DNA from: Lachnospiraceae bacterium UBA1818
GTDB lineage: Bacteria > Bacillota > Clostridia > Lachnospirales > Lachnospiraceae
Assembly: GCA_904419285.1 (NCBI GenBank)
Contig: CAJFQZ010000018.1
Location: 1 to 53,788, forward strand
Reading direction: 5' to 3'
Length of the DNA stretch: 53,788 bases
Within the stretch, counting starts at the first letter, position 1; each line of letters begins with the position of its first letter. The position numbers were made by a program, and so were the translations under genes. Below are positions 14,026-37,153 of this stretch, in pieces. The notes beneath the pieces are model-generated. The model did no database searches, was not told the origin of the DNA, and saw only the letters and a list, made by a program, of their open reading frames with translations.

Positions 14026-15096
14026 TCAGTGGAGAAAGAGGATTCCATCCTCAGCAAACGCGAGATAATCGGGCATTCCTCTCTCATCCAGGAGCGCCGT
14101 CTTGTCTCTCTGGACGAACCAGCAGAGGACTTCCCCCGGGGAGCCGATGTCTTCCGCCCCGCCGGTCTCTGGCCGGATATAATAATTCCGCTCGAACGGA
14201 AGCACTGCGCTGCTCTCCAGACTGAACCGGATCATGTTCTCTCCTCTCCCTCCCCACACCGGGATGAAGTCATGTGCCCTGTATCCGATGTATACCGTAT
14301 CTTCCGGAATCTCCCGGCTGATATGGAGCGTGATTCCCCAGTCCGCCGCCCTCAACGTATGGCTGTCGATCCGTTCTGCCCTGGAGAAGTTTTTACAGCC
14401 GGTCAGTCTCGCCGCCTCCTTCGCGATCGGATTCTGAAAAATCTGCTTCGTCTCTCCGGCTCTCACGATCCGCCCCTGATCGATGATGAGAAGTTCCTCG
14501 CTGAACCGGTAGACTTCATCCCGGTCATGGGAGACAAGGATAACGGTCCCCTGATAGTCCTCCAGCATCTCGATCAGTTCTCTCTGGAGCTGATCTTTAA
14601 GGTACATGTCAAGCGCCGAGAAGGGCTCGTCCAGCAGGATCACATCCGGCTCATACGCCATGATGCGCGCCAGCGCTGTTCTCTGCTGCTGGCCTCCGGA
14701 GAGCTGTCCGGGGAACTGCTTCTCCAGTCCGCCGAGCTGAAATTTCTCCACCATCTGACGCACGCGCCGCGCATTTTCCCGTCTGCTGCCCTTCAGGCCG
14801 GCAGCGATGTTCTTCTCCACCGTCATAGTTGGAAAAAGCGCGTAATTCTGGAACAGATATCCCACATTCCTTTTCTGGGGCTTCAGGTTCACCTTCTCTT
14901 TCCGGTCAAAAAGCGTGCGCCCCTCCACTGTGATCTTTCCCTCGTCCGGAGTCTCGATCCCGGCGATGCTCTTAAGCGTCATGCTCTTTCCGCAGCCGGA
15001 TGCACCAAGTATGCCGATCCGCCTCGATGTACTGCGGAAGCTGATATCAAGATTGAAGGTGTTCAGCTTCTTATGGATCTCAACAGATATCGCCAC
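14026..15096 (-). CDS. modC: Molybdate ABC transporter ATP-binding protein
   Basis: A 356-residue ATPase energising molybdate uptake. Walker A is GASGCGKS at 31-38, followed by the Q-loop 'GYLFQNYALFP', signature LSGGQQQR, Walker B VILLDEPFSALD and switch 'VSHDRDE'. The C-terminal third (about 230-356) is a TOBE-like regulatory region, somewhat divergent from E. coli ModC. The start lies three bases after the modB stop. It is the last gene of modABC and follows the molybdenum/selenium hydroxylase genes on the same strand, so it probably supplies molybdenum to that enzyme. Confidence 0.9.
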   Translation of the reverse strand: MAISVEIHKKLNTFNLDISFRSTSRRIGILGASGCGKSMTLKSIAGIETPDEGKITVEGRTLFDRKEKVNLKPQKRNVGYLFQNYALFPTMTVEKNIAAGLKGSRRENARRVRQMVEKFQLGGLEKQFPGQLSGGQQQRTALARIMAYEPDVILLDEPFSALDMYLKDQLQRELIEMLEDYQGTVILVSHDRDEVYRFSEELLIIDQGRIVRAGETKQIFQNPIAKEAARLTGCKNFSRAERIDSHTLRAADWGITLHISREIPEDTVYIGYRAHDFIPVWGGRGENMIRFSLESSAVLPFERNYYIRPETGGAEDIGSPGEVLCWFVQRDKTALLDERGMPDYLAFAEDGILFLH

Positions 15097-16865: not shown

Positions 16866-17798
16866 CTACAGAATATCTCCGAAGATCTCTCTATATTTTT
16901 TCTCCGCAGCCTCAGCGGTCTCCCGCTCCAGCCTCTCATATTTCTCCATCAGACTGCGGCCGTTCTCGCTGACTCTGGCAGTCCCCCCAGTCCTTCCGCC
17001 CGGACTCCGTTCCACGATGGTACAGCCAAGCTCGCGCTCCGCTGTTCGGATCAGGGACCAGCCTTTACTGTATGACATTCCTGCTTTCTCGCATGCTTCA
17101 CGCACGCTTCCAAGCACCTCGATCTGTTTCAGGATCACCATCATCCCAGGACCGAAAAATGGTTCGTTCTTTACAAGCTGTACCTTGACTCTCGGATAAA
17201 CAGGCGGCGGACATTCCTTTTCCGCCACCTCCTCGAATCGTTCTTCGCTCCCCGCCCGGATGAGCACGCCGCCGTCGCTCACCTCTGCAAGGACAATCTC
17301 TGCTCCGGATGCGTCGATAGCGCCCTTCAGCCCTCTTTCTCCCAAGTATGAGGCAATACCCCGGGTCAGTCCCGCGTCGATCAGGACAGGATGGCCTTTC
17401 CTCCCCTCATATACCGGGATAACTACCGGAGCGTCCTGTTCCAGCATGATCCTGAGCGTATCCTCTGTGAAAAGCGGAACGTCGGACGGGCAGAAGAAAA
17501 TCCTGCCACAGGTATTCTCCAGGTAGGTGAATCCACGCACCGCGAAATCAATCATCTGCTCCGCCTCATAATCTTCTGCTCTCAGAAAAACAGCCCCCAG
17601 CTTTGCCAGCTTCTTTTCTGTCTCCTCCGCCTTATATCCCGTCACTATGACGATATCTTCCACGCCTGCGCGGCGGAAACTGTAGATCATCCTTCTGATC
17701 ATTCTGCTCCCGTCAATATGCTCCATCTCATCATAGGAGCGAAACCCGCCCGGCGCTCCCGCGGCGGCGATCACCGCTCCGATCCTCATCAATTCCAT
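16866..17798 (-). CDS. MocA/MobA-like nucleotidyltransferase fused to a ModE-like DNA-binding domain
   Basis: A 310-residue two-domain protein. Residues about 6-190 resemble the NTP-transferase fold of MocA/MobA, which add CMP or GMP to molybdopterin. The usual LAAGxGxRxGxxK loop is degenerate (IAAAGAPGGFRSYDEMEHIDG; no lysine at the expected place), while 'PSDVPLFTEDTL' and 'EGRKGHPVLI' are kept. Residues about 205-290 are a ModE-type winged helix ('VKNEPFFGPGMMVILKQIEVLGSVREACEKAGMSYSKGWSLI'). The protein may therefore sense cofactor or nucleotide state and regulate mod or hydroxylase genes (inference). It lies after xdh and before modA. The ATG at 17789 is an equally possible start. Confidence 0.8.
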   Translation of the reverse strand: MELMRIGAVIAAAGAPGGFRSYDEMEHIDGSRMIRRMIYSFRRAGVEDIVIVTGYKAEETEKKLAKLGAVFLRAEDYEAEQMIDFAVRGFTYLENTCGRIFFCPSDVPLFTEDTLRIMLEQDAPVVIPVYEGRKGHPVLIDAGLTRGIASYLGERGLKGAIDASGAEIVLAEVSDGGVLIRAGSEERFEEVAEKECPPPVYPRVKVQLVKNEPFFGPGMMVILKQIEVLGSVREACEKAGMSYSKGWSLIRTAERELGCTIVERSPGGRTGGTARVSENGRSLMEKYERLERETAEAAEKKYREIFGDIL

Positions 17799-21098: not shown

Positions 21099-22457
21099 CT
21101 ACATCAACAGATCTTCCTTCCGGTCAATGTCCTTCAGTTCCTCCGGATCCGCCTGAACGATCCGCAGGCTGTCCCGATGTCTCCTCATCACCTGTCTGCC
21201 GCCCTCATCCCCGGTCAGTCCGAGAAGTTCCGGAAAATATTTTCTGTCCCAGAGGACCGGATTTCCCGTCCTCCCGCCGTTCCCTGCACAGACGATGCTT
21301 CCGGGGTGGAGCATCCCTGCATTGAAGATCCGCTGGATCGTTGAAGTCTCAATTCCCGGCTGATCACATACTGAAAAGAGAATGCCTTTCAGTCCGGGAT
21401 GGCAGTCCAGTGCACGCTCAAGCCCCAGTCTGAGAGAACGGGAGATCCCCCTCTCAGGTTCACAATTCCACACCGGTGTGATCCCTCTCTTCTCAGCCGC
21501 CTCTGCGATCGCTTTCTCTCCTGTAACGATATATGCAGGGAAAGCCCCGAATGCCCTGGTCTTCTCCAGCATATGCTCATAGAGAGGCCTGTTCCTGACC
21601 AGGGCATTCAGCTTGTTTCCTCCGAACCGTGTTCCTGCTCCCGCCGCCAGGATAACGATCCCGAAACGGTCTTTCATCCGCTCAAATCCGGTCACCGCCT
21701 CAAGGACTCCTCCCCCGATCGCTCTGGCTTTATCGGACACCGTATAACAGTGCGCTGTTTCCGTCCTCGCATCGATATCTCCGATCTTCAGGTTTTTCCA
21801 CACATCAACGCCCTCCTGCAGCATCCCTCGGACGATCCCGGACATCTGGGCGTATACCGGCACGCCGCCTGTAAGAGCAACGACCTGTCCTTTCTCCACA
21901 TAGTCGCCGATCTGCGCCTTCGGTTCCATCCTGCCGTCTGCGCCTGCGCGGATCAGCCTCTCGATGGTATAGCCCCCTACATTGCCCGGCACCCCGGTAT
22001 TAGGGATGGCGCTGCCTTTCCAAATGAGATTTCCCAGCGTATGTCCACGTTTTGTCTCTACCACACAGTTGCAGTCCTTCCCTGCAGTAAATCCCGGTCC
22101 TGCGCCGATCACAAACGGGGCATCCGTGATACCTGTCCCCAGATTCTTCTTCGCCAGGATCGCATCCACGATCACATCCGGCCGGAACCATTTCCGGCAC
22201 TCCATCTCCGGATCGACCATCACCGCGATACCGCCCCGCTCCAGCACTGCCTGCGCCGACTGACCGTCTTCTGCCAGAAAGCCTTCCATCTCTTCAATCT
22301 GCACTTTTTTTTCATACACTGCCCTCGAGAGAGCCACTGTCCGCCGTACAGTGAGCGGGACTTCGATCTCTGTCATCAGGATCTGATGCCCGGCTCCATA
22401 AAGCCTGGATGCGATGCCCGTCGCCAGATCCCCTGCGCCTCTAATCAATATTTTCAT
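21099..22457 (-). CDS. yqeB: YqeB-family selenium hydroxylase maturation protein fused to MocA-like cytidylyltransferase
   Basis: A 452-residue fusion. Residues 1-260 belong to the YqeB (EF2563) family of selenium-dependent molybdenum hydroxylase maturation proteins ('MKILIRGAGDLATGIASRLYGAGHQILMTE', 'VIGAGPGFTAG', 'GHTLGNLIWKG'). Residues from about 265 on are a complete MocA/YgfJ-type nucleotidyltransferase with the intact NTP-binding loop LAAGAGTRFGGNKL at 270-283, 'EPERGISRSLRLGLE' and 'FSVCDQPGI'. In E. coli these activities are on separate proteins (YqeB and YgfJ/MocA). The MocA half would convert molybdopterin to its cytosine dinucleotide form; the YqeB half is thought to help insert the selenium/sulfur ligand. 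It sits between yqeC and the polyferredoxin gene on one strand. Confidence 0.88.
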   Translation of the reverse strand: MKILIRGAGDLATGIASRLYGAGHQILMTEIEVPLTVRRTVALSRAVYEKKVQIEEMEGFLAEDGQSAQAVLERGGIAVMVDPEMECRKWFRPDVIVDAILAKKNLGTGITDAPFVIGAGPGFTAGKDCNCVVETKRGHTLGNLIWKGSAIPNTGVPGNVGGYTIERLIRAGADGRMEPKAQIGDYVEKGQVVALTGGVPVYAQMSGIVRGMLQEGVDVWKNLKIGDIDARTETAHCYTVSDKARAIGGGVLEAVTGFERMKDRFGIVILAAGAGTRFGGNKLNALVRNRPLYEHMLEKTRAFGAFPAYIVTGEKAIAEAAEKRGITPVWNCEPERGISRSLRLGLERALDCHPGLKGILFSVCDQPGIETSTIQRIFNAGMLHPGSIVCAGNGGRTGNPVLWDRKYFPELLGLTGDEGGRQVMRRHRDSLRIVQADPEELKDIDRKEDLLM

Positions 22458-29275: not shown

Positions 29276-30610
29276 TTACCGGCTGTTGATCCTGTCCGCC
29301 AGCTCAGCCGCCGCCTGCCTGCAGTCTGCCATGATCTTCTCTTCATCGATCTGTGTGAGCTGTCTGTCCTTCATAAGGACCTTTCCGTTGGCCACTGTGG
29401 TCACCACGTCATGTCCGGTCACGCCGAACACAAGATGACCGTTGATATTGCCTGCATTCATCGGTGTGAGCGGATCATAGTCCACAATGATCACATCTCC
29501 TGCCGCGCCTTCCTTCAGAACGCCCAGTTCCTGCGGGAAATATCTCCCGGCGATCCTGGCGTTGTTCTTAAAGAGCATCTCCGGCACTTCCGCCCACGCT
29601 GCGTTGGGATCGCAGAGATGATGCTTGTGCAGGACGTTCGCCACCTTGAAGGATTCCATCATATCATGGGTGTATCCGTCGGTCCCGAGCCCGGTGAGGA
29701 TGCCCCGGTGCACCAGCTCCATCGTAGGAGGACATCCGCAGGCATTTCCCATATTTGACTCCGGATTATGCACCACCATGGTATCCGTCTCCCTGATCAG
29801 GTCCATCTCATGGGGATTGATATAGATGCAGTGTCCCAGGAGCGTCTTCTCTCCGAGAATCCCGTGATCCATCAGGCGGTCCACGATCCGTTTTCCATAA
29901 TGCTTCAGGCAGTGGTGAAGATCTTCGATTCCCTCTGCGACATGGATATGATACCCGACCTCATCCGGCTTGTTCTCCGCGGCAAATTCAAATGTCTCAT
30001 CCGAGATAGTGAACTGTGCGTGCATGCCCATCATGCCGGCGATCATCCCAGTGTCATCCTTCAGCGCGTGACGGATGAATTCTGCATTTTCCATGACTGA
30101 CTCTCTCGCCTTGTCCATTCCGTCCCGGTCTGAGATCTCATAGCAGAGACAGGAGCGCACGCCGGTCTCCTTCGCCGCCCTCTCGATCTCAAAGAGCGAT
30201 CCCCTTATGGAGCCGAAGCTGGCATGGTGATCGAACACTGTCGTCACACCGTTCTTGATACTGTCAATATAAGTAGCCATAGCGCTCAAATATGTATCGT
30301 GGAGCGTCAGGTTTCTGTCAATCGTCCACCACATTCCATCCAGGATATCGAGAAATCCCTTCGGGTCATACCCCCTGATCGAAAGTCCTCTTGCGAACGA
30401 GCTGTAAATATGCTCGTGCACATTGATAAATGCCGGCATGATCAGGCCGCCCGCCGCATCTATGTACTCTGCCCCCGGATATGCCTTTCTTACCTCTTCG
30501 TCGCCGCCCACCTTACAGATCGCGGTTCCGTCGATCGCCACTGCCCCGTTCTCGATCAGCGGACATGCATCATCTCTTGTGATAACTCTTCCATTACCTA
30601 AAATCAGCAT
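29276..30610 (-). CDS. ssnA: SsnA amidohydrolase (chlorohydrolase family)
   Basis: A 444-residue metal-dependent deaminase-type amidohydrolase. Ligands: 'INVHEHIYSSFARG' (HxH, about residue 65), 'HIHVAEG', 'LGHCIYIN' and 'GLGTDGYTHDM'. It belongs to the family named putative aminohydrolase SsnA, which is nearly always linked to selenium-dependent molybdenum hydroxylases. AAAGGAG lies eight bases before the ATG. It is the first gene of the leftward operon, about 90 bases below the promoter with the paired operators. The likely role is hydrolytic deamination of an amino-purine such as guanine or of a later intermediate (inference). Confidence 0.93.
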   Translation of the reverse strand: MLILGNGRVITRDDACPLIENGAVAIDGTAICKVGGDEEVRKAYPGAEYIDAAGGLIMPAFINVHEHIYSSFARGLSIRGYDPKGFLDILDGMWWTIDRNLTLHDTYLSAMATYIDSIKNGVTTVFDHHASFGSIRGSLFEIERAAKETGVRSCLCYEISDRDGMDKARESVMENAEFIRHALKDDTGMIAGMMGMHAQFTISDETFEFAAENKPDEVGYHIHVAEGIEDLHHCLKHYGKRIVDRLMDHGILGEKTLLGHCIYINPHEMDLIRETDTMVVHNPESNMGNACGCPPTMELVHRGILTGLGTDGYTHDMMESFKVANVLHKHHLCDPNAAWAEVPEMLFKNNARIAGRYFPQELGVLKEGAAGDVIIVDYDPLTPMNAGNINGHLVFGVTGHDVVTTVANGKVLMKDRQLTQIDEEKIMADCRQAAAELADRINSR

Positions 30611-30706: not shown

Positions 30707-30735
30707 AGAATAACATTAATAATGTATAAATGCAA
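30707..30735 (-). promoter_or_regulatory. Promoter of the leftward purine operon (ssnA onward)
   Basis: Leftward -35 TTGCAT (30730-30735), 17-base spacer, -10 TATTCT (30707-30712). The -35 is weak, fitting an activated promoter. The upstream operator pair ends 8 bases before it. Confidence 0.65.
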
Positions 30736-30743
30736 CAACGGTG

Positions 30744-30778
30744 CTAAATAATTTTTAGAGCATCTAAAAAATTTTTAG
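30744..30778. promoter_or_regulatory. Operator pair upstream of ssnA (two 15-bp palindromes)
   Basis: CTAAATAATTTTTAG (30744-30758) and the perfect palindrome CTAAAAAATTTTTAG (30764-30778), with starts 20 bases apart. They are centred about 52 and 72 bases upstream of the expected ssnA transcription start. The same motif pair occurs on the regulator side. Confidence 0.7.
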
Positions 30779-30813
30779 GATACTTTCGGACACTCCACGC
30801 CTTTAGCAGAAGA

Positions 30814-30852
30814 AAAGGCGTTTCCACTGTCTGTTACAGAGAAAACGCCTTT
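30814..30852. terminator. Terminator-like hairpin between the divergent promoters
   Basis: AAAGGCGTTT (30814-30823) pairs with AAACGCCTTT (30843-30852). T-rich sequence follows on both strands (TTTTCTTCT on the minus strand). No gene converges here. A short second hairpin (CGGT/ACCG, 30859-30873) followed by CTTTTTC lies to the right. Confidence 0.5.
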
Positions 30853-30987
30853 GTCTCACGGTCTTTTCAACCGGTCCTTTTTCATTTTTCAGACTCCTGA
30901 CAGCTGCCAGCCGTCCTGCTATGGAGGTAAGTATATACAATTTTCAGGCTTCCGTCAAGACTGATCCACATGGCTTTTGCAGTGATT

Positions 30988-31022
30988 CTAAATATTTTTT
31001 AGATAACCTAAAAATTTTTTAG
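30988..31022. promoter_or_regulatory. Operator pair upstream of the PAS/HTH regulator gene
   Basis: CTAAATATTTTTTAG (30988-31002) and CTAAAAATTTTTTAG (31008-31022), starts 20 bases apart, ending 8 bases before the -35. Spacing and distance mirror the ssnA side exactly. Confidence 0.7.
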
Positions 31023-31030
31023 AAAAACTA

Positions 31031-31058
31031 TTGACTCCGCCCTTTTTTATGCTATGAT
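31031..31058 (+). promoter_or_regulatory. Promoter of the rightward purine operon (regulator, ygeXYW, ridA, arcC)
   Basis: -35 TTGACT (31031-31036), 16-base spacer, -10 TATGAT (31053-31058), about 60 bases before the regulator ATG. Confidence 0.7.
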
Positions 31059-31125: not shown

Positions 31126-31773
31126 ATGGATCAGAAACTGGATTTTCTAAAGCAGCTCGCACACGGCCTTGCGGTTCAGTTCGGAAGCTCCTGCGAGGTC
31201 GTCATCCATGATCTGACGAAGAAAGATCTTGACAAGTCCATCGTCTATATTGAGAACGGACATGTTTCAGACCGTCACACCGGCGACGGGCCTTCCGGAA
31301 TCGTGCTTGAGACGCTGAGTTCGGATCCGTCCAGGATCAAGGATAAGCTCGCCTATCTCACGCGGACAGATGACGGCAGGATCCTGAAATCCAGCACGCT
31401 CTATATCCGCGACGAAAAAGGCCGCATTATCTATATCTTTTCAATGAACTACGACATCACCACCCTGCTTGCCGCGGAGAACTCTATCCGCGGGCTGCTC
31501 CGGACAGAACCGGAGACGGATGCAGAACACGACGGTGCCGGCTCACCCCAGAGGATCACTCATAATGTGACAGAACTTCTCGACCTTCTCATCGAGCAGG
31601 CCATCGCCAAGGTCGGGAAACCGGTCGCGATGATGAACAAAGACGACAAGATCGCCGTGGTACAGTATCTGAACAATGCCGGTGCTTTTCTCATCACAAA
31701 ATCCGGCGATAAAGTTTCTTCACTTCTCGGAATATCAAAGTTTACATTATACAGTTACATGGACAAAGGATAA
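31126..31773 (+). CDS. YheO-like PAS/helix-turn-helix transcriptional regulator of the purine cluster
   Basis: A 215-residue regulator from ATG 31126 (AGGTGA four bases upstream). Residues about 5-120 match the YheO-like PAS domain ('LKQLAHGLAVQFGSSCEVVIHDL', 'LKSSTLYIRDEKGRIIYIFSMNYDIT'). The C-terminal region from about 150 is the HTH found in the same family ('IAVVQYLNNAGAFLITKSGDKVSSLLGISKFTLYSYM'). Family members such as DauR sense small metabolites. An ATG at 31054 lies inside the -10 box and is rejected. It is first in the rightward operon and divergent from ssnA, so it is the natural candidate to bind the four palindromes; activation in response to a purine is inference. Confidence 0.85.
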   Translation: MDQKLDFLKQLAHGLAVQFGSSCEVVIHDLTKKDLDKSIVYIENGHVSDRHTGDGPSGIVLETLSSDPSRIKDKLAYLTRTDDGRILKSSTLYIRDEKGRIIYIFSMNYDITTLLAAENSIRGLLRTEPETDAEHDGAGSPQRITHNVTELLDLLIEQAIAKVGKPVAMMNKDDKIAVVQYLNNAGAFLITKSGDKVSSLLGISKFTLYSYMDKG

Positions 31774-31796: not shown

Positions 31797-33002
31797 ATGG
31801 ACACAATCAAATGGACAGTGAACAAAATGCCGAAGACAGCGGATGCCAACCTGAAGATCATGGGACTGGACGAGGTCCGGAAAGCCCGTACTTTCCACGA
31901 AAGCTTTCCCCAGTACAGCGTCACTCCTCTGGCAAAACTCGACCACATGGCAGCGCGTCTGGGACTCAAAGAAGTCTACGTCAAGGATGAATCTTACCGG
32001 TTCGGGCTGAATGCGTTCAAGGTGCTCGGCGGTTCGTTCGCCATGGCGCGCTACATAGCCAAGCAGACCGGGAAGGATGTCTCAGAGCTTCCTTACAGTG
32101 TACTCACATCGGAAGAACTGAGGAAAGAGTTCGGGCAGGCCACCTTCTTCACCGCAACGGACGGCAACCACGGACGCGGCGTTGCATGGGCAGCCAGCAG
32201 GCTCGGACAGAAGGCAGTCGTTCTCATGCCCAAGGGCAGCACACAGACCAGGCTGAACAACATCCTGGCCGAGGGCGCCCAGGCTACGATCGAGGAATAC
32301 AACTATGACGAATGCGTGCGCATGGCAAATGCCATGGCGGAAAAGACAGAGAACGGCGTCATGGTCCAGGATACTGCATGGGACGGATACGAAGAGATCC
32401 CTTCCTGGATCATGCAGGGATACGGCACAATGGCGATGGAGGCAGACGAACAGCTTCACGGATATGGCTGTGAACGCCCGACCCACGTTTTCATCCAGGC
32501 CGGCGTCGGTTCTCTTGCCGGAGCCGTCCAGGGGTATTTCGCCAACCGCTATCCCGAGAATCCCACGAAAGTCATCGTAGTCGAAGCAGAAGCGGCGGCG
32601 TGCCTGTACAAGGGAGCCTGCGCCGGAGACGGAGACATCCGCATCGTAGACGGCGACATGGTGACGATCATGGCCGGACTCGCCTGCGGAGAACCGAACA
32701 CGATCTCCTGGGATATTCTGAAAAACCATGTAGATACCTTCACGGCAGTGCCTGACTGGGTAGCGGCACGCGGCATGCGCATGCTGGCCGCTCCGATCAA
32801 AGGAGACCGACAGGTGACTTCCGGCGAATCCGGAGCTGCCCCCTTCGGCACACTGGCGTGCATCATGACAATGGATGAGTATCAGCCCTTAAGAGAGCAT
32901 CTGGGTCTCGACGAAAGTTCAAAGGTCCTCCTCTTCTCCACTGAAGGAGACACTGACCCCGAGAGATACGAGTCCATCGTCTGGAGCGGGAATGACAGAT
33001 GA
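31797..33002 (+). CDS. ygeX: 2,3-diaminopropionate ammonia-lyase
   Basis: A 401-residue fold-type II PLP enzyme converting 2,3-diaminopropionate to pyruvate and two ammonia. PLP lysine K75 lies in 'GLNAFKVLGGS'; 'ATDGNHGRGVAWAASRLG' binds the cofactor phosphate region, and 'VQDTAWDGYEEIP' and 'QAGVGSLAGAVQGYF' are family marks. GAAGGAGG precedes the ATG. It is second in the rightward operon, 23 bases after the regulator stop, and followed by ygeY. In the purine cluster it would be the last carbon-releasing step. Confidence 0.95.
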   Translation: MDTIKWTVNKMPKTADANLKIMGLDEVRKARTFHESFPQYSVTPLAKLDHMAARLGLKEVYVKDESYRFGLNAFKVLGGSFAMARYIAKQTGKDVSELPYSVLTSEELRKEFGQATFFTATDGNHGRGVAWAASRLGQKAVVLMPKGSTQTRLNNILAEGAQATIEEYNYDECVRMANAMAEKTENGVMVQDTAWDGYEEIPSWIMQGYGTMAMEADEQLHGYGCERPTHVFIQAGVGSLAGAVQGYFANRYPENPTKVIVVEAEAAACLYKGACAGDGDIRIVDGDMVTIMAGLACGEPNTISWDILKNHVDTFTAVPDWVAARGMRMLAAPIKGDRQVTSGESGAAPFGTLACIMTMDEYQPLREHLGLDESSKVLLFSTEGDTDPERYESIVWSGNDR

Positions 33003-33139
33003 TCTGCCATTTTCCGAACGCCTTCATAGACAGGAAACTTTTCAACTTTATCTGACCGGGCATCCGGACCTGCTTTCCCGGCAGCCCGGCGCCTGATGAA
33101 ACATGCACACAGGATTTTAAGAAAAGGAGAATGAGAACC

Positions 33140-34450
33140 ATGGACCTGAACAAGATCAAAGAAGCTGCACAGAATTATGAGAAAGATATGACGGCATTTC
33201 TTCGCGCCATCGTGAAAAATCCGGGAGAGAGCTGCGACGAGAAAGCCCACATTGATACGATCGCTGCGGAGATGAAGAAACTGGACTTTGACGAAGTGGT
33301 CATCGATCCCCAGGGAAATGTCATCGGCTACATGGGGACCGGGGATAAGATCATCGCCTACGACGCGCACATCGACACCGTCGGGATCGGGAATATCGAC
33401 AACTGGAACTTCGATCCCTACGAAGGTTATGAGAACGACACAGAGATCGGCGGACGCGGCGTATCGGATCAGTGCGGCGGTCTCGTATCCGCTGTTTACG
33501 GCGCAAGGATCATGAAAGATCTTGATCTGATCCCTGAGGGATGCAGGATCATGGTCGTCGGAACGGTACAGGAAGAAGACTGCGACGGTCTCTGCTGGCA
33601 GTATATTATCAATGAAGACAAGATCCGTCCTGAATTTGTCGTATCCACAGAGCCGACAGACGGAGGCATCTACCGCGGACAGAGAGGACGCATGGAGATC
33701 CGCGTGGACGTCAAAGGCGTCTCCTGTCACGGCTCTGCCCCGGAGCGCGGAGACAACGCGATCTACAAGATGGCTGATATTCTCCAGGATGTACGCGCGC
33801 TCAATGAAAATGACGACGCGGACGAGACTGAGATCAAAGGCCTTGTTAAAATGCTGAACCCGAAGTACAACCCGGACTGGGAGGAAGCCCGCTTCCTCGG
33901 CCGCGGCACGGTAACTGTCTCCCAGATCTTCTACACCTCGCCCAGCCGCTGTGCAGTGGCAGACTCCTGCGCGGTATCTCTTGACCGCCGCATGACATTC
34001 GGCGAGACCTGGGAGAGCTGCCTGGACGAGATCCGCGCACTCCCCAGTGTACAGAAATACGGGGACGATGTGACCGTATCCATGTACAACTACGACCGGC
34101 CTTCCTACACAGGATGCGTCTACGAGATTGAATGCTACTTCCCGACCTGGGCGATTCCGAAGGATCATAAGGTCACGAAGGCACTGGAGAAAGCTTATAC
34201 TTCACTTTACGGCGACAAGAGGATCGGCGCAGAAGAAACTCTTGAGATGCGTCAGAGCCGTCCGCTGACAGACAAGTGGACCTTCTCGACCAACGGCGTC
34301 TCCATCATGGGACGGAACGGGATCCCATGCATCGGATTCGGACCAGGCGCCGAAGCCCAGGCACATGCGCCGAACGAGAAGACATGGAAACAGGATCTGG
34401 TAACATGCGCAGCTGTATATGCAGCCCTGCCGAACTGTTACTGCGAATAA
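33140..34450 (+). CDS. ygeY: YgeY family M20 metallohydrolase
   Basis: A 436-residue M20/ArgE-type hydrolase from ATG 33140 (AGGAG ten bases upstream; the ATG at 33131 is too close to it). Zinc ligands: '[10 protein letters not shown]' (H, D), '[10 protein letters not shown]' (D), 'VQEEDCDG' (E-E), 'STEPTDG' and the final histidine in 'AQAHAPNE'. The family is described as selenium-metabolism-linked YgeY. In this operon it probably removes a carbamoyl or acyl group from a diaminopropionate derivative (inference). It sits between ygeX and ygeW. Confidence 0.93.
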
Positions 34451-34495
34451 AACGTGAACAGGTTTTTAATATGATTTTTAGGAGGATAAACAAAA

Positions 34496-35689
34496 ATGAA
34501 AACATTACAGGATTACATTGATAAACTGAATGCCCTGAACTTTAAAGATATGTACAACGGAGACTTCTTCCTGACCTGGGAGAAGACAGACGATGAGCTT
34601 GAGGCCGTCTTCACCGTGGCAGATGCGCTCCGTTATATGAGAGAGCACAACATTTCCACAAAGGTATTCGAGAGCGGTCTCGGAATCTCCCTGTTCCGCG
34701 ACAATTCCACCCGCACCCGCTTCTCCTTCGCCTCCGCCTGCAACATGCTGGGCCTTGAGGTACAGGACCTGGACGAGGGCAAATCCCAGGTGGCCCACGG
34801 CGAGACGGTACGTGAGACAGCAAACATGATCTCTTTCATGGCTGACGTCATCGGAATCCGCGACGATATGTACATCGGCAAAGGAAACGCCTACATGCAT
34901 GAAGTCGTGGACGCTGTGACACAGGGAAATAAGGACGGCATCCTGGAGCAGAAACCGACTCTCGTGAACCTGCAGTGCGATATCGACCATCCGACTCAGG
35001 CAATGGCGGACATGCTCCACATCATCCACGAGTTCGGCGGAGTTGAGAATCTGAAGGGCAAGAAGATCGCAATGTCATGGGCATACTCTCCGTCTTACGG
35101 CAAGCCGCTCTCCGTTCCCCAGGGCGTCATCGGTCTGATGACCCGTTTCGGAATGGACGTTGTGCTCGCCCATCCGGAAGGATATGAGGTGTTCCCGGAA
35201 GTGGAGGCTGTTGCCGCAGAGAACGCAGCGAAGTCCGGCGGATCCTTCACAAAGACAAACAATATGGCAGAGGCATTCAAAGACGCCGACATCGTATATC
35301 CGAAAAGCTGGGCTCCGTTCGCTGCCATGGAGAAACGTACGGAACTGTACGGCAGCGGCGACTTCGAGGGCATCAAAGAGCTGGAGAAGGAACTGCTGGC
35401 TCAGAATGCACAGCACAAAGACTGGGCGTGCACAGAAGAGCTCATGGCAACGACAAAAAATGGCAAAGCGCTCTACCTGCACTGTCTGCCGGCTGATATC
35501 ACCGGCGTGAGCTGCGAGGAAGGCGAGGTTGACGCAAGCGTATTCGACCGCTACAGAGATCCGCTCTACAAAGAGGCAAGCTACAAGCCTTACATCATCG
35601 CAGCGATGATCTTCCTTGCGAAGTTCGCCGATCCGGCCGACATCCTCAAGAAGCTGGAAGAAAGAGCGACGCCGAGGATCTTCGAGTAA
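34496..35689 (+). CDS. ygeW: YgeW knotted carbamoyltransferase
   Basis: A 397-residue protein of the aspartate/ornithine carbamoyltransferase superfamily. The carbamoyl-phosphate loop is STRTR (71-75, in '[21 protein letters not shown]'), with '[25 protein letters not shown]', '[16 protein letters not shown]' and '[10 protein letters not shown]'. Length and motifs match the YgeW clade, distinct from ArgF and PyrB. AGGAGG lies ten bases before the ATG. With carbamate kinase three genes on, it probably runs in the phosphorolytic direction, giving carbamoyl phosphate from a ureido intermediate such as ureido-diaminopropionate (inference). Confidence 0.94.
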
Positions 35690-35808
35690 ACATATCAGAT
35701 TCTGCAGGCGGAATATTCCTGCAGAGATCAAATCCGGGGCGCAGGAGGACGAAAACGGAGCTGCGCCCTGAAAATACATCAATAAATTCATCAGGAGGTA
35801 ATCTGACC

Positions 35809-36192
35809 ATGTTAAAATATGTTGAAACAAAAAACGCACCTGCAGCAATCGGACCGTATTCCCAGGGCATCGTCCTGAACGGAATCGCATTCTTTTCCGG
35901 ACAGATCCCGCTTTCTCCCGAGACAGGGGAAGTTGTGGGGACTACCATCGAAGAGCAGGCAGAGCAGGTCATGAAAAATGTAGGCGCACTTCTGGAGAGT
36001 CAGGGCGCGTCCTTTACAGACGTTGTAAAGACCACCTGCTTCCTTGCAGATATGGGCGATTTCGCCGCATTTAACGAAGTATATGCAAAATACTTCACAG
36101 GGAATCCGGCCCGCTCTTGCGTCGCTGTCAAAGATCTTCCGAAGGGAGTGCTCTGCGAGGTAGAGACCATTGCTTCTGTAAAAGAGGACTGA
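35809..36192 (+). CDS. ridA: RidA family enamine/imine deaminase
   Basis: A 127-residue RidA/YjgF protein. The conserved '[26 protein letters not shown]' start, the catalytic arginine in 'NPARSCVAV' and the glutamate in 'CEVETIASV' are present. AGGAGG precedes the ATG. RidA hydrolyses reactive 2-aminoacrylate, which diaminopropionate ammonia-lyase is expected to release, so its place after ygeX-ygeY-ygeW makes metabolic sense. It lies 16 bases before arcC. Confidence 0.95.
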
Positions 36193-36208
36193 TCACAGGA
36201 GGCAGGTT

Positions 36209-37153
36209 ATGAAAAAGAAGAAACGAATCGTCATCGCCCTGGGCGGGAACGCCCTCGGCAATACCCTGCCGGAACAGATGAAAGCCGTAAAGATCACATC
36301 CCGTGCGATCGTTGATCTGATCGAAGAGGGCTGTGAAGTCGTCGTCGCTCACGGCAACGGCCCCCAGGTGGGCATGGTGAACAACGCCATGATCGCGCTC
36401 ACACACGAGGATCCGCAGCAGCCCAATACGCCGCTGTCCGTCTGCGTGGCGATGAGCCAGGCGTACATCGGATACGATCTGCAGAATGCGCTCAGGGAAG
36501 AACTTCTCAACAGAAATATCACAGACATCCCTGTGGCTACCATGATCACTCAGGTCAGAGTAGATCCCGGCGATCCGGCTTTTGAACATCCATCCAAACC
36601 GATCGGAAGATTCATGACCAAAGAACAGGCTGATATGATGTCTGAAAAATATGATTATATCATGAAGGAGGATGCCGGCCGCGGCTACCGCCGTGTGGTC
36701 GCCTCTCCGAAGCCACAGGAGATCATTGAGATCGGAACGATCCGCAATATGGTAGATTCCGGTGATCTCGTCATCGCATGCGGGGGCGGCGGCATCCCTG
36801 TCACGCGCCAGGGGAACCACTTAAAGGGCGCCAGCGCGGTCATTGACAAAGACTTTGCCAGCTGTCTGCTTGCGAAGGAGCTGGACGCAGATTTTCTGAT
36901 CATCCTGACCGCAGTGGAAAAGGCTGCGATCAATTACGGTAAACCGGATGAGAAATGGCTGGATGACATCACAGTGGATGAGGCGAAACAGTATATCGCC
37001 GAGGGGCACTTCGCTCCCGGATCTATGCTGCCGAAGGTGCAGGCCGCCGTTGATTTTGCCGCGTCGAAGCCCGGCAGGCAGTCGCTCATCACTCTGCTTG
37101 AGAAGGCCCGCGACGGGATTCTCGGGAAAACAGGGACTCGAATCCATCTGTAG
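36209..37153 (+). CDS. arcC: Carbamate kinase
   Basis: A 314-residue amino-acid-kinase-fold enzyme making ATP from carbamoyl phosphate and ADP. Signatures: 'IVIALGGNALGN' at the N-terminus, 'VVAHGNGPQVGM', 'TMITQVRVD', 'VIACGGGGIPV', 'AVIDKDFASCLLAKELDADFLIILTAVEKAAINYG' and 'GSMLPKVQAAVDF'. AGGAGGCAG lies before the ATG. It is the last gene of the rightward operon and is followed by a strong terminator. It corresponds to yqeA of the E. coli cluster and would be the ATP-yielding step. Confidence 0.96.
   Translation: MKKKKRIVIALGGNALGNTLPEQMKAVKITSRAIVDLIEEGCEVVVAHGNGPQVGMVNNAMIALTHEDPQQPNTPLSVCVAMSQAYIGYDLQNALREELLNRNITDIPVATMITQVRVDPGDPAFEHPSKPIGRFMTKEQADMMSEKYDYIMKEDAGRGYRRVVASPKPQEIIEIGTIRNMVDSGDLVIACGGGGIPVTRQGNHLKGASAVIDKDFASCLLAKELDADFLIILTAVEKAAINYGKPDEKWLDDITVDEAKQYIAEGHFAPGSMLPKVQAAVDFAASKPGRQSLITLLEKARDGILGKTGTRIHL

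Follow-up and report, generated by a model that had tools for sequence, protein, structure and literature searches.

A conserved palindromic dyad between divergent uric-acid operons is the probable operator of a YheO-like PAS_6-HTH_22 regulator

Results

Gene organization of the locus

The DNA stretch analyzed here (the window) covers 53,788 nucleotides of contig CAJFQZ010000018.1 from Lachnospiraceae bacterium UBA1818 and carries two divergent runs of genes (Table 1). By gene order, the left run comprises 12 genes and reaches an ABC ATPase gene at 14026-15096. It starts with ssnA, an NCS2 permease gene and ygfK, followed by genes for an amidohydrolase, YqeC, a YqeB-MocA fusion and an Fe-S protein, and it continues with a Se-dependent xanthine dehydrogenase, a MobA-like protein and an ABC transporter assigned to molybdate by context alone. 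The right run comprises 6 genes, which are the gene of the PAS_6-HTH_22 regulator (here called REG), dpaL, ygeY, ygeW, ridA and arcC. SsnA, YgfK, YgeX (DpaL), YgeY and YgeW are presented as enzymes of the reductive uric-acid pathway in the available text of PMC12507026. The original prediction counted 16 genes under one signal, a number that has to be replaced by 12 and 6 for the co-directional runs. The extent of each run was judged from the order of the genes and from a rough search for terminators, which gave 19 and 6 terminator-like sites, numbers not clearly higher than in shuffled sequences. At gathering score, Rfam returned 0 matches in the window, and so no match to a xanthine or urate riboswitch.

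Two minus-strand ORFs combine domains. The ORF at 21099-22457 fuses YqeB and MocA-type cytidylyltransferase domains, and the one at 16866-17798 joins a MobA-like NTP transferase domain to a LysR-type HTH match just under the cut-off.

Table 1. Coordinates of the genes, promoters and candidate regulatory features in the window
Feature	Position	Strand	Description
ssnA	29276-30610	-	first gene of left run; TIGR03314/NF005540
ssnA-operon promoter	30707-30735	-	TTGCAT (30735-30730), 17 nt, TATTCT (30712-30707)
Left operator twin (ssnA side)	30744-30778	.	two CTAAA-N5-TTTAG sites, period 20, spacer AGCAT
Insert between duplicated twins	30779-30987	.	209 bp; absent from compact relatives, e.g. L006, L012, L015
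Candidate small transcription unit	30810-30958	-	TTGACG-17-TATACT (30958-30930), then hairpin with U-rich tail
Right operator twin (regulator side)	30988-31022	.	two CTAAA-N5-TTTAG sites, period 20, spacer ATAAC
Regulator-operon promoter	31031-31058	+	TTGACT (31031-31036), 16 nt, extended TATGAT (31053-31058)
REG, PAS_6-HTH_22 (YheO-like) regulator	31126-31773	+	215 aa; proposed binder
dpaL (ygeX), ygeY, ygeW, ridA, arcC	31797-37153	+	downstream of REG

Two pairs of palindromes lie 8 nt from the divergent promoters

Searching the whole window for CTAAA-N5-TTTAG gave four exact matches (30744-30758, 30764-30778, 30988-31002 and 31008-31022) and no further one even when a mismatch was allowed, while shuffled windows contained 0.66 matches on average at ≤1 mismatch and 3 at most. 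Over the 2.77-Mb genome, 17 places match at ≤1 mismatch and these four alone are exact. The reversed control pattern is commoner in this genome (135 against 17 for the motif); as CTAG-type ends are rare, it was regarded as an unfair null and left unused. Scored with a position weight matrix, whose training set included L005 (same sequence as the right twin of the window) and mid rows chosen by eye for clear promoter geometry, the left and right twins reached 39.4 and 44.9, and the next best place outside both reached -4.3.

The sites of each twin repeat with a period of 20 nt. The proximal site has its last base at 31022 (plus strand) and at 30744 (minus strand), and in both cases 8 nt separate it from the -35, TTGACT and TTGCAT, respectively. 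If transcription starts 7 nt past the -10, the site centres fall at about -50 and -70 on the plus strand and about -51 and -71 on the minus strand. The mismatch-tolerant scan and these measurements confirm what had been predicted on the four palindromes and their confinement between ssnA and the regulator gene, the 20-base period, the 8-base gap on both sides and the placement near -50 and -70. The pairs had also been called mirrored, which is correct for their geometry but not for their sequence: in register, the two 35-bp twins are 86% identical with the same order of site variants, as direct duplicates are. Compared as an inverted repeat they still reach 84%, owing to their palindromic make-up.

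Both promoters are of the sigma-70 type. The regulator promoter is close to consensus and has an extended -10, and the ssnA core promoter, which was read by eye and not reported by the promoter scan, is weak.

Conservation of the palindrome and of the 8-nt gap

A search for REG relatives yielded 108 proteins, of which 80 loci were kept, and the -35 of each locus was chosen by promoter score alone, blind to the palindrome. All loci with a REG identity of 70% or more (48/48) have an exact palindrome that finishes 8 nt upstream of this -35; L005, which is the window's own sequence, is one of them. In 49 loci, the 420 nt upstream of REG contain a twin with ≤3 mismatches, and 45 of these have a TTG on the ssnA side exactly 8 nt past the outer edge; no such twin was found in 31/80 loci, and 24/80 lack even one site (≤1 mismatch) in the 700 nt ahead of REG. 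Across 21 de-duplicated close promoters, the proximal site never departs from its ten specified bases, the C and G at its ends among them, whereas three central bases and the spacer vary.

Below 70% identity (32 loci), a site at gap 8 was detected with ≤1 mismatch in 6 loci and with ≤3 mismatches in 16, the single-base shuffle rate for the latter being 1%. This unselected group is blurrier, and the T-run of the proximal site is its best conserved part. The expectation that the palindrome and its 8-base gap recur in related clusters is thus borne out among close relatives (48/48 and 45/49) and fades farther off (24/80 loci siteless); many far relatives have no close match to the predicted operator. 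The gap is not invariably 8, since we read values of 9 and 7 by eye in the G025 cluster. In Mediterraneibacter massiliensis (L100/L050), the twin has a period of 19 nt and the exact palindrome still lies 8 nt before the -35.

Compact, duplicated and far forms of the dyad

Compact relatives (L006, L012, L015 and others) have a single twin placed 8 nt from both divergent -35s. Directly duplicated twins, with copies 20 to 209 nt apart, are found in the window (and L005), L010, L011, L013, L014, L019 and L060, and L041 has two operator copies of poorer match with 163 nt between them. A full-length match to the window insert was present in its own genome and in G298 only, among 58 genomes of the genus. 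Because one twin is shared by both promoters in compact relatives, the arrangement of the window most likely represents a split form derived from one shared switch by direct duplication. As for the assemblies, L005 and L011 (record CASFID...) are two different locus copies from one bin (100% and 88% regulator identity), which is possibly mixed, and G298, which has those two copies, is listed at 6% contamination.

The dyad seems to take a variant form in 16 far loci, a set chosen by eye because the promoter geometry was clear; the following counts describe this set only. At the inner half-sites, the right CTAAA is exact in 13/16 and the left TTTAG in 4/16, its G being kept in 12/16. The outer right half-site becomes TTGTA (exact in 12/16) and the outer left one TACAA-like (exact in 6/16, mean 3.9 of 5). 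As this variant appears symmetric across the dyad, we read the operator unit as the whole 35-mer. The unit that keeps the symmetry is therefore best read as a putative dyad of 35 bp in which four half-sites follow each other every 10 bp, a refinement of the pairs of a 15-bp palindrome described originally.

The insert of the window looks like the site of a candidate small-RNA gene nested in the split switch. In the inserts of the window, L010, L011, L013 and L041, a promoter-like TTGACR-17-TAYAYT pair of boxes is followed on the same strand by a hairpin with a U-rich tail. Shuffled sequences gave an equally good promoter match in only 4, 21, 1 and 2 of 300 cases for the window, L010, L011 and L013, respectively, and the match did not stand out from shuffles in L041 (82/300) and L014 (145/300). 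The window hairpin has a folding z of -3.26 on the minus strand, and the terminator scans reported no terminator-like site at 30810-30958. The hairpin of L010, L011 and L013 occurs in only 3 of the 58 genus genomes.

The sites track REG across genomes

REG matches PF08348 (PAS_6; E 5.6e-36, 123.3 bits for a cut-off of 27) and PF13309 (HTH_22; E 7.2e-21, 74.4 bits for a cut-off of 29.6), and it belongs to the YheO-like proteins on the strength of these two domains. Its AlphaFold model has a pLDDT of 85.

In the 58 genus genomes, REG is present in 53 and a twin (≤2 mismatches) in 53, and the two are concordant in 56. The discordant pair consists of G285, where the twin stands next to ssnA at the end of a contig, and G267, with a twin of period 19 nt; the reversed control pattern was found in 1/58. 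In 250 genomes of the family, ssnA (E ≤ 1e-100) was detected in 43, REG (E ≤ 1e-40) in 39 and both in 37 (Fisher 2e-35), so that REG is present in 37/43 genomes with ssnA compared to 2/207 without it. Scanning the same 250 genomes with the window-pattern twin (≤1 mismatch) gave matches in 10, five of them upstream of REG (G000, G038, G113, G148 and G214), and the reversed control gave 0. REG-positive genomes make up 8/10 of the twin-matched genomes compared to 31/240 of the others (p 6e-6; p 3e-5 when the own genome is excluded), and the two other matches are in genomes without REG (G067 and G141). A near-type twin (≤1 mismatch) stands beside REG in only 5/39 REG-positive family genomes (4/38 excluding the own genome). 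The far-type dyad, at ≤2 mismatches, was found in 13/250 genomes and its reversed control in 5/250, in a scan that mainly shows where else the dyad is absent, the pattern having been derived partly from promoters that it then matched. At ≤1 mismatch it was found in five genomes, always beside REG; two of the other eight matches are beside REG (G026 and G133) and six are chance-like.

We also considered ssnA-cluster promoters that are not linked to REG. They score above the null maximum in 8/12 REG-positive genomes compared to 0/6 REG-negative ones (p 0.013; rank test p 0.03), with one of the six, G127, having a 27%-identical REG relative near ssnA. Three of the 12 promoters are siteless and one is below the null maximum. 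In G138, REG lies ~215 kb away and the gap is 8 on both sides. In L062, REG is found at the end of the ssnA operon, and the stretch between ssnA and dpaL contains a twin (period 21, one mismatch) whose distance to either -35 is 8 nt. Paralogues of REG, ~60% identical and encoded beside another amidohydrolase-type gene, have an exact site upstream in 6/10 cases (L085, L087-L090 and L093) and a one-mismatch site in two more (L092 and L094).

The window-pattern scan of the family gave three twins away from REG in REG-positive genomes. In L137 (1588-1622), the twin lies 8 nt before the -35 of ridA and REG is on another contig, which makes ridA a candidate trans target. The twin of L135 (1601-1635) precedes a guanine deaminase-like gene followed by xdhA, and that of L136 (1865-1899) precedes an ORF followed by selD. 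The L135 twin is 2 nt before TATAAT and would therefore overlap the -35 there.

Taken from these sequence comparisons, REG very probably binds the palindromic dyad. The YheO-like PAS/HTH protein to which the sites had been attributed is the best-supported candidate, given the 56/58 concordance, the sites of 6/10 paralogues and the trans twins.

Discussion

A REG-bound dyad would probably activate both operons

Sites that lie upstream of the -35 with constant spacing and helical phasing are the layout of an activator that contacts RNA polymerase. The core promoters are left free, distance and phase to the -35 are fixed and the ssnA core is weak, and together these features favour activation; we therefore consider it probable that REG binds the dyad and activates both operons. 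The operator of this regulator, encoded beside it, would read CTAAA-N5-TTTAG-N5-CTAAA-N5-TTTAG. In the compact form, it would be one 35-bp dyad located 8 nt from the -35 of each divergent sigma-70-type promoter, where two REG dimers would sit on one helix face, next to RNA polymerase, and recruit it both ways. The upstream half (permease, Se-dependent xanthine dehydrogenase, YgfK, SsnA, Mo-cofactor genes and putative molybdate transporter) would be switched on jointly with the downstream half, which includes DpaL, YgeY, YgeW, RidA and carbamate kinase, plus REG itself. In the window, the operator would have been directly duplicated round the 209-bp insert, so that each promoter has its own copy.

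The sequences themselves show the sites, their spacing and conservation, their co-occurrence with REG and the sites in trans; from these we infer the binding, the activation, the ligand and the stoichiometry of REG on the dyad. As a guess, the ligand is perhaps a late intermediate of the pathway, in view of the ridA link and of the DpaL reaction, which passes through 2-aminoacrylate. A wider model would have one REG assembly, made of two dimers on the 35-bp dyad, activate two opposed polymerases at 8-nt offsets and couple both uric-acid halves to one signal, some lineages, the one of the window among them, having duplicated the dyad round a small-RNA gene to obtain a split switch with an RNA output. 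Taken with all its parts, this model is tentative and rather doubtful.

Repressor sites usually overlap the core promoter, which is left free here by a fixed 8-nt gap on both sides, and the ssnA core promoter (TTGCAT/TATTCT) is weak. It is thus unlikely that REG binds the dyad yet represses both operons until a purine-pathway ligand releases it, even if the regulator promoter, near consensus with an extended -10, would need no activator and the trans twin of L135 would overlap its -35. Repression also has a precedent in the one family member with a tested effect among the literature covered: the Campylobacter jejuni protein Cj1387c (PAS_6-HTH) is described as a repressor of the adjacent L-PSP gene, and its mutant over-produces the L-PSP protein (PMC4519771, in the part of the article available). 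Cj1387c and E. coli YheO, both YheO-like regulators, have the same PF08348 and PF13309 domain pair as REG. According to the same portion of the article, Cj1387c orthologues are encoded beside an L-PSP/RidA gene (PMC4519771), and a ridA link is common to them and to REG, ridA belonging to the same run here and standing under a trans twin in L137. In the window, ridA (35809-36192) is three genes away from REG, with dpaL, ygeY and ygeW between them, and is therefore not adjacent. Whereas Cj1387c, as described there, represses one adjacent gene and is given no operator in that text, REG has a conserved operator that faces two operons, which suggests activation.

Other binders, UP elements and chance

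Another protein could bind the palindrome, with REG as a mere neighbour in the cluster, and the twin matches of the two REG-negative genomes G067 and G141 would fit such a reading. We find it improbable, as the sites follow the presence and absence of REG, are exact before 6/10 paralogous REG genes and, in the three trans twins of REG-positive genomes, precede ridA, purine or selenium genes. ComK, whose AT-box is AAAA-N5-TTTT, would be a candidate by its site: the K-box of Bacillus has two boxes resembling AAAA-N5-TTTT and spaced by roughly two turns of the helix, as the twin does. The dyad differs from the K-box by its conserved end C and G and by the protein family concerned, and control by ComK was rejected because PF06338 was not found in the genome while the control search found it in B. 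subtilis.

The 15-bp core and the helix sequence prompted the idea of a Fis-like HTH. The operator ends with C...G and the Fis site with G...C. An HTH-only model (pLDDT 91) compared to the PDB gave nothing at E ≤ 0.001, and Fis was not among the best 50 of 114 matches; a similar fold is still conceivable. The Fis core site is described as 15 bp, AT-rich and bounded by G/C pairs (PMC4784862, available text). In sequence searches of the PDB, the HTH profile found nothing below E 0.5 and full-length REG found none at E ≤ 1. The fold search with the full REG model gave mostly PAS/LOV-domain proteins among the matches listed, and no ligand clue.

The AT tracts recur at the helical period and could be RNA-polymerase UP elements or phased A-tract curvature only, with no dedicated regulator. 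On the plus strand, the proximal site and the AAAA that follows it fit the UP consensus in the expected register, and what is best conserved of this site in the unselected group below 70% identity is the T-run. Such tracts would not need the end C and G, which are invariant in 21/21 de-duplicated close promoters. The genome has no exact site in any other place, 6/6 REG-negative ssnA promoters lack the site, and in the hand-picked far set the outer half-sites are altered on the left and on the right of the dyad. We thus hold an explanation by these tracts alone to be very improbable, although an UP function overlapping the operator is conceivable. As to chance repeats in AT-rich intergenic DNA, the shuffles (mean 0.66, maximum 3) and the conservation in dozens of species leave this explanation a negligible probability.

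Comparison with known systems

Divergent operons that share one local operator are a known arrangement. The activation by REG proposed here is of this kind, with a locally encoded and probably autoregulated regulator between two divergent operons; unlike divergent operons in general, it would have a strict 8-nt/8-nt symmetry round a 35-bp dyad of four half-sites, which is duplicated in the window.

In Clostridioides, Clostridium and Desulfotomaculum, these genes are reported to have a sigma-54 activator, DioR, with a predicted regulon of dpaL, ygeW-ygfK-ssnA-ygeY, pbuX, tdcF and yqeB (PMC6615313, in the text available). The DioR system uses sigma-54, whereas the promoters of the window are of the sigma-70 type. 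Control by sigma-54 and DioR was rejected, since the PF04552 DNA-binding domain was not found in the 94%-complete assembly. A -24/-12-like match with 1 mismatch lies at 30746-30731, and 12 such matches were counted at ≤2 mismatches for 23 expected.

A text search of the literature found no operator for the YheO-like PAS_6-HTH family. The accessible portion of PMC6892915 gives the growth conditions used in ChIP-exo of E. coli YheO, so published operator data may exist. The architecture thus looks known in kind and the operator looks new for the YheO-like family.

Regulation of uric-acid genes across gut bacteria is called poorly understood, and a uricolytic probiotic against high uric acid is proposed, in the available text of PMC12507026. 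For the form of the uric-acid cluster seen in Mediterraneibacter and relatives, the dyad and REG are a candidate operator with its candidate regulator, and the dyad gives a widespread regulator family a candidate operator. If the proposed activation is true, both halves of gut uric-acid breakdown would be tied to one signal. The motif can be used to find more targets, among which ridA, the guanine-deaminase-like/xdhA pair and selD already emerge.
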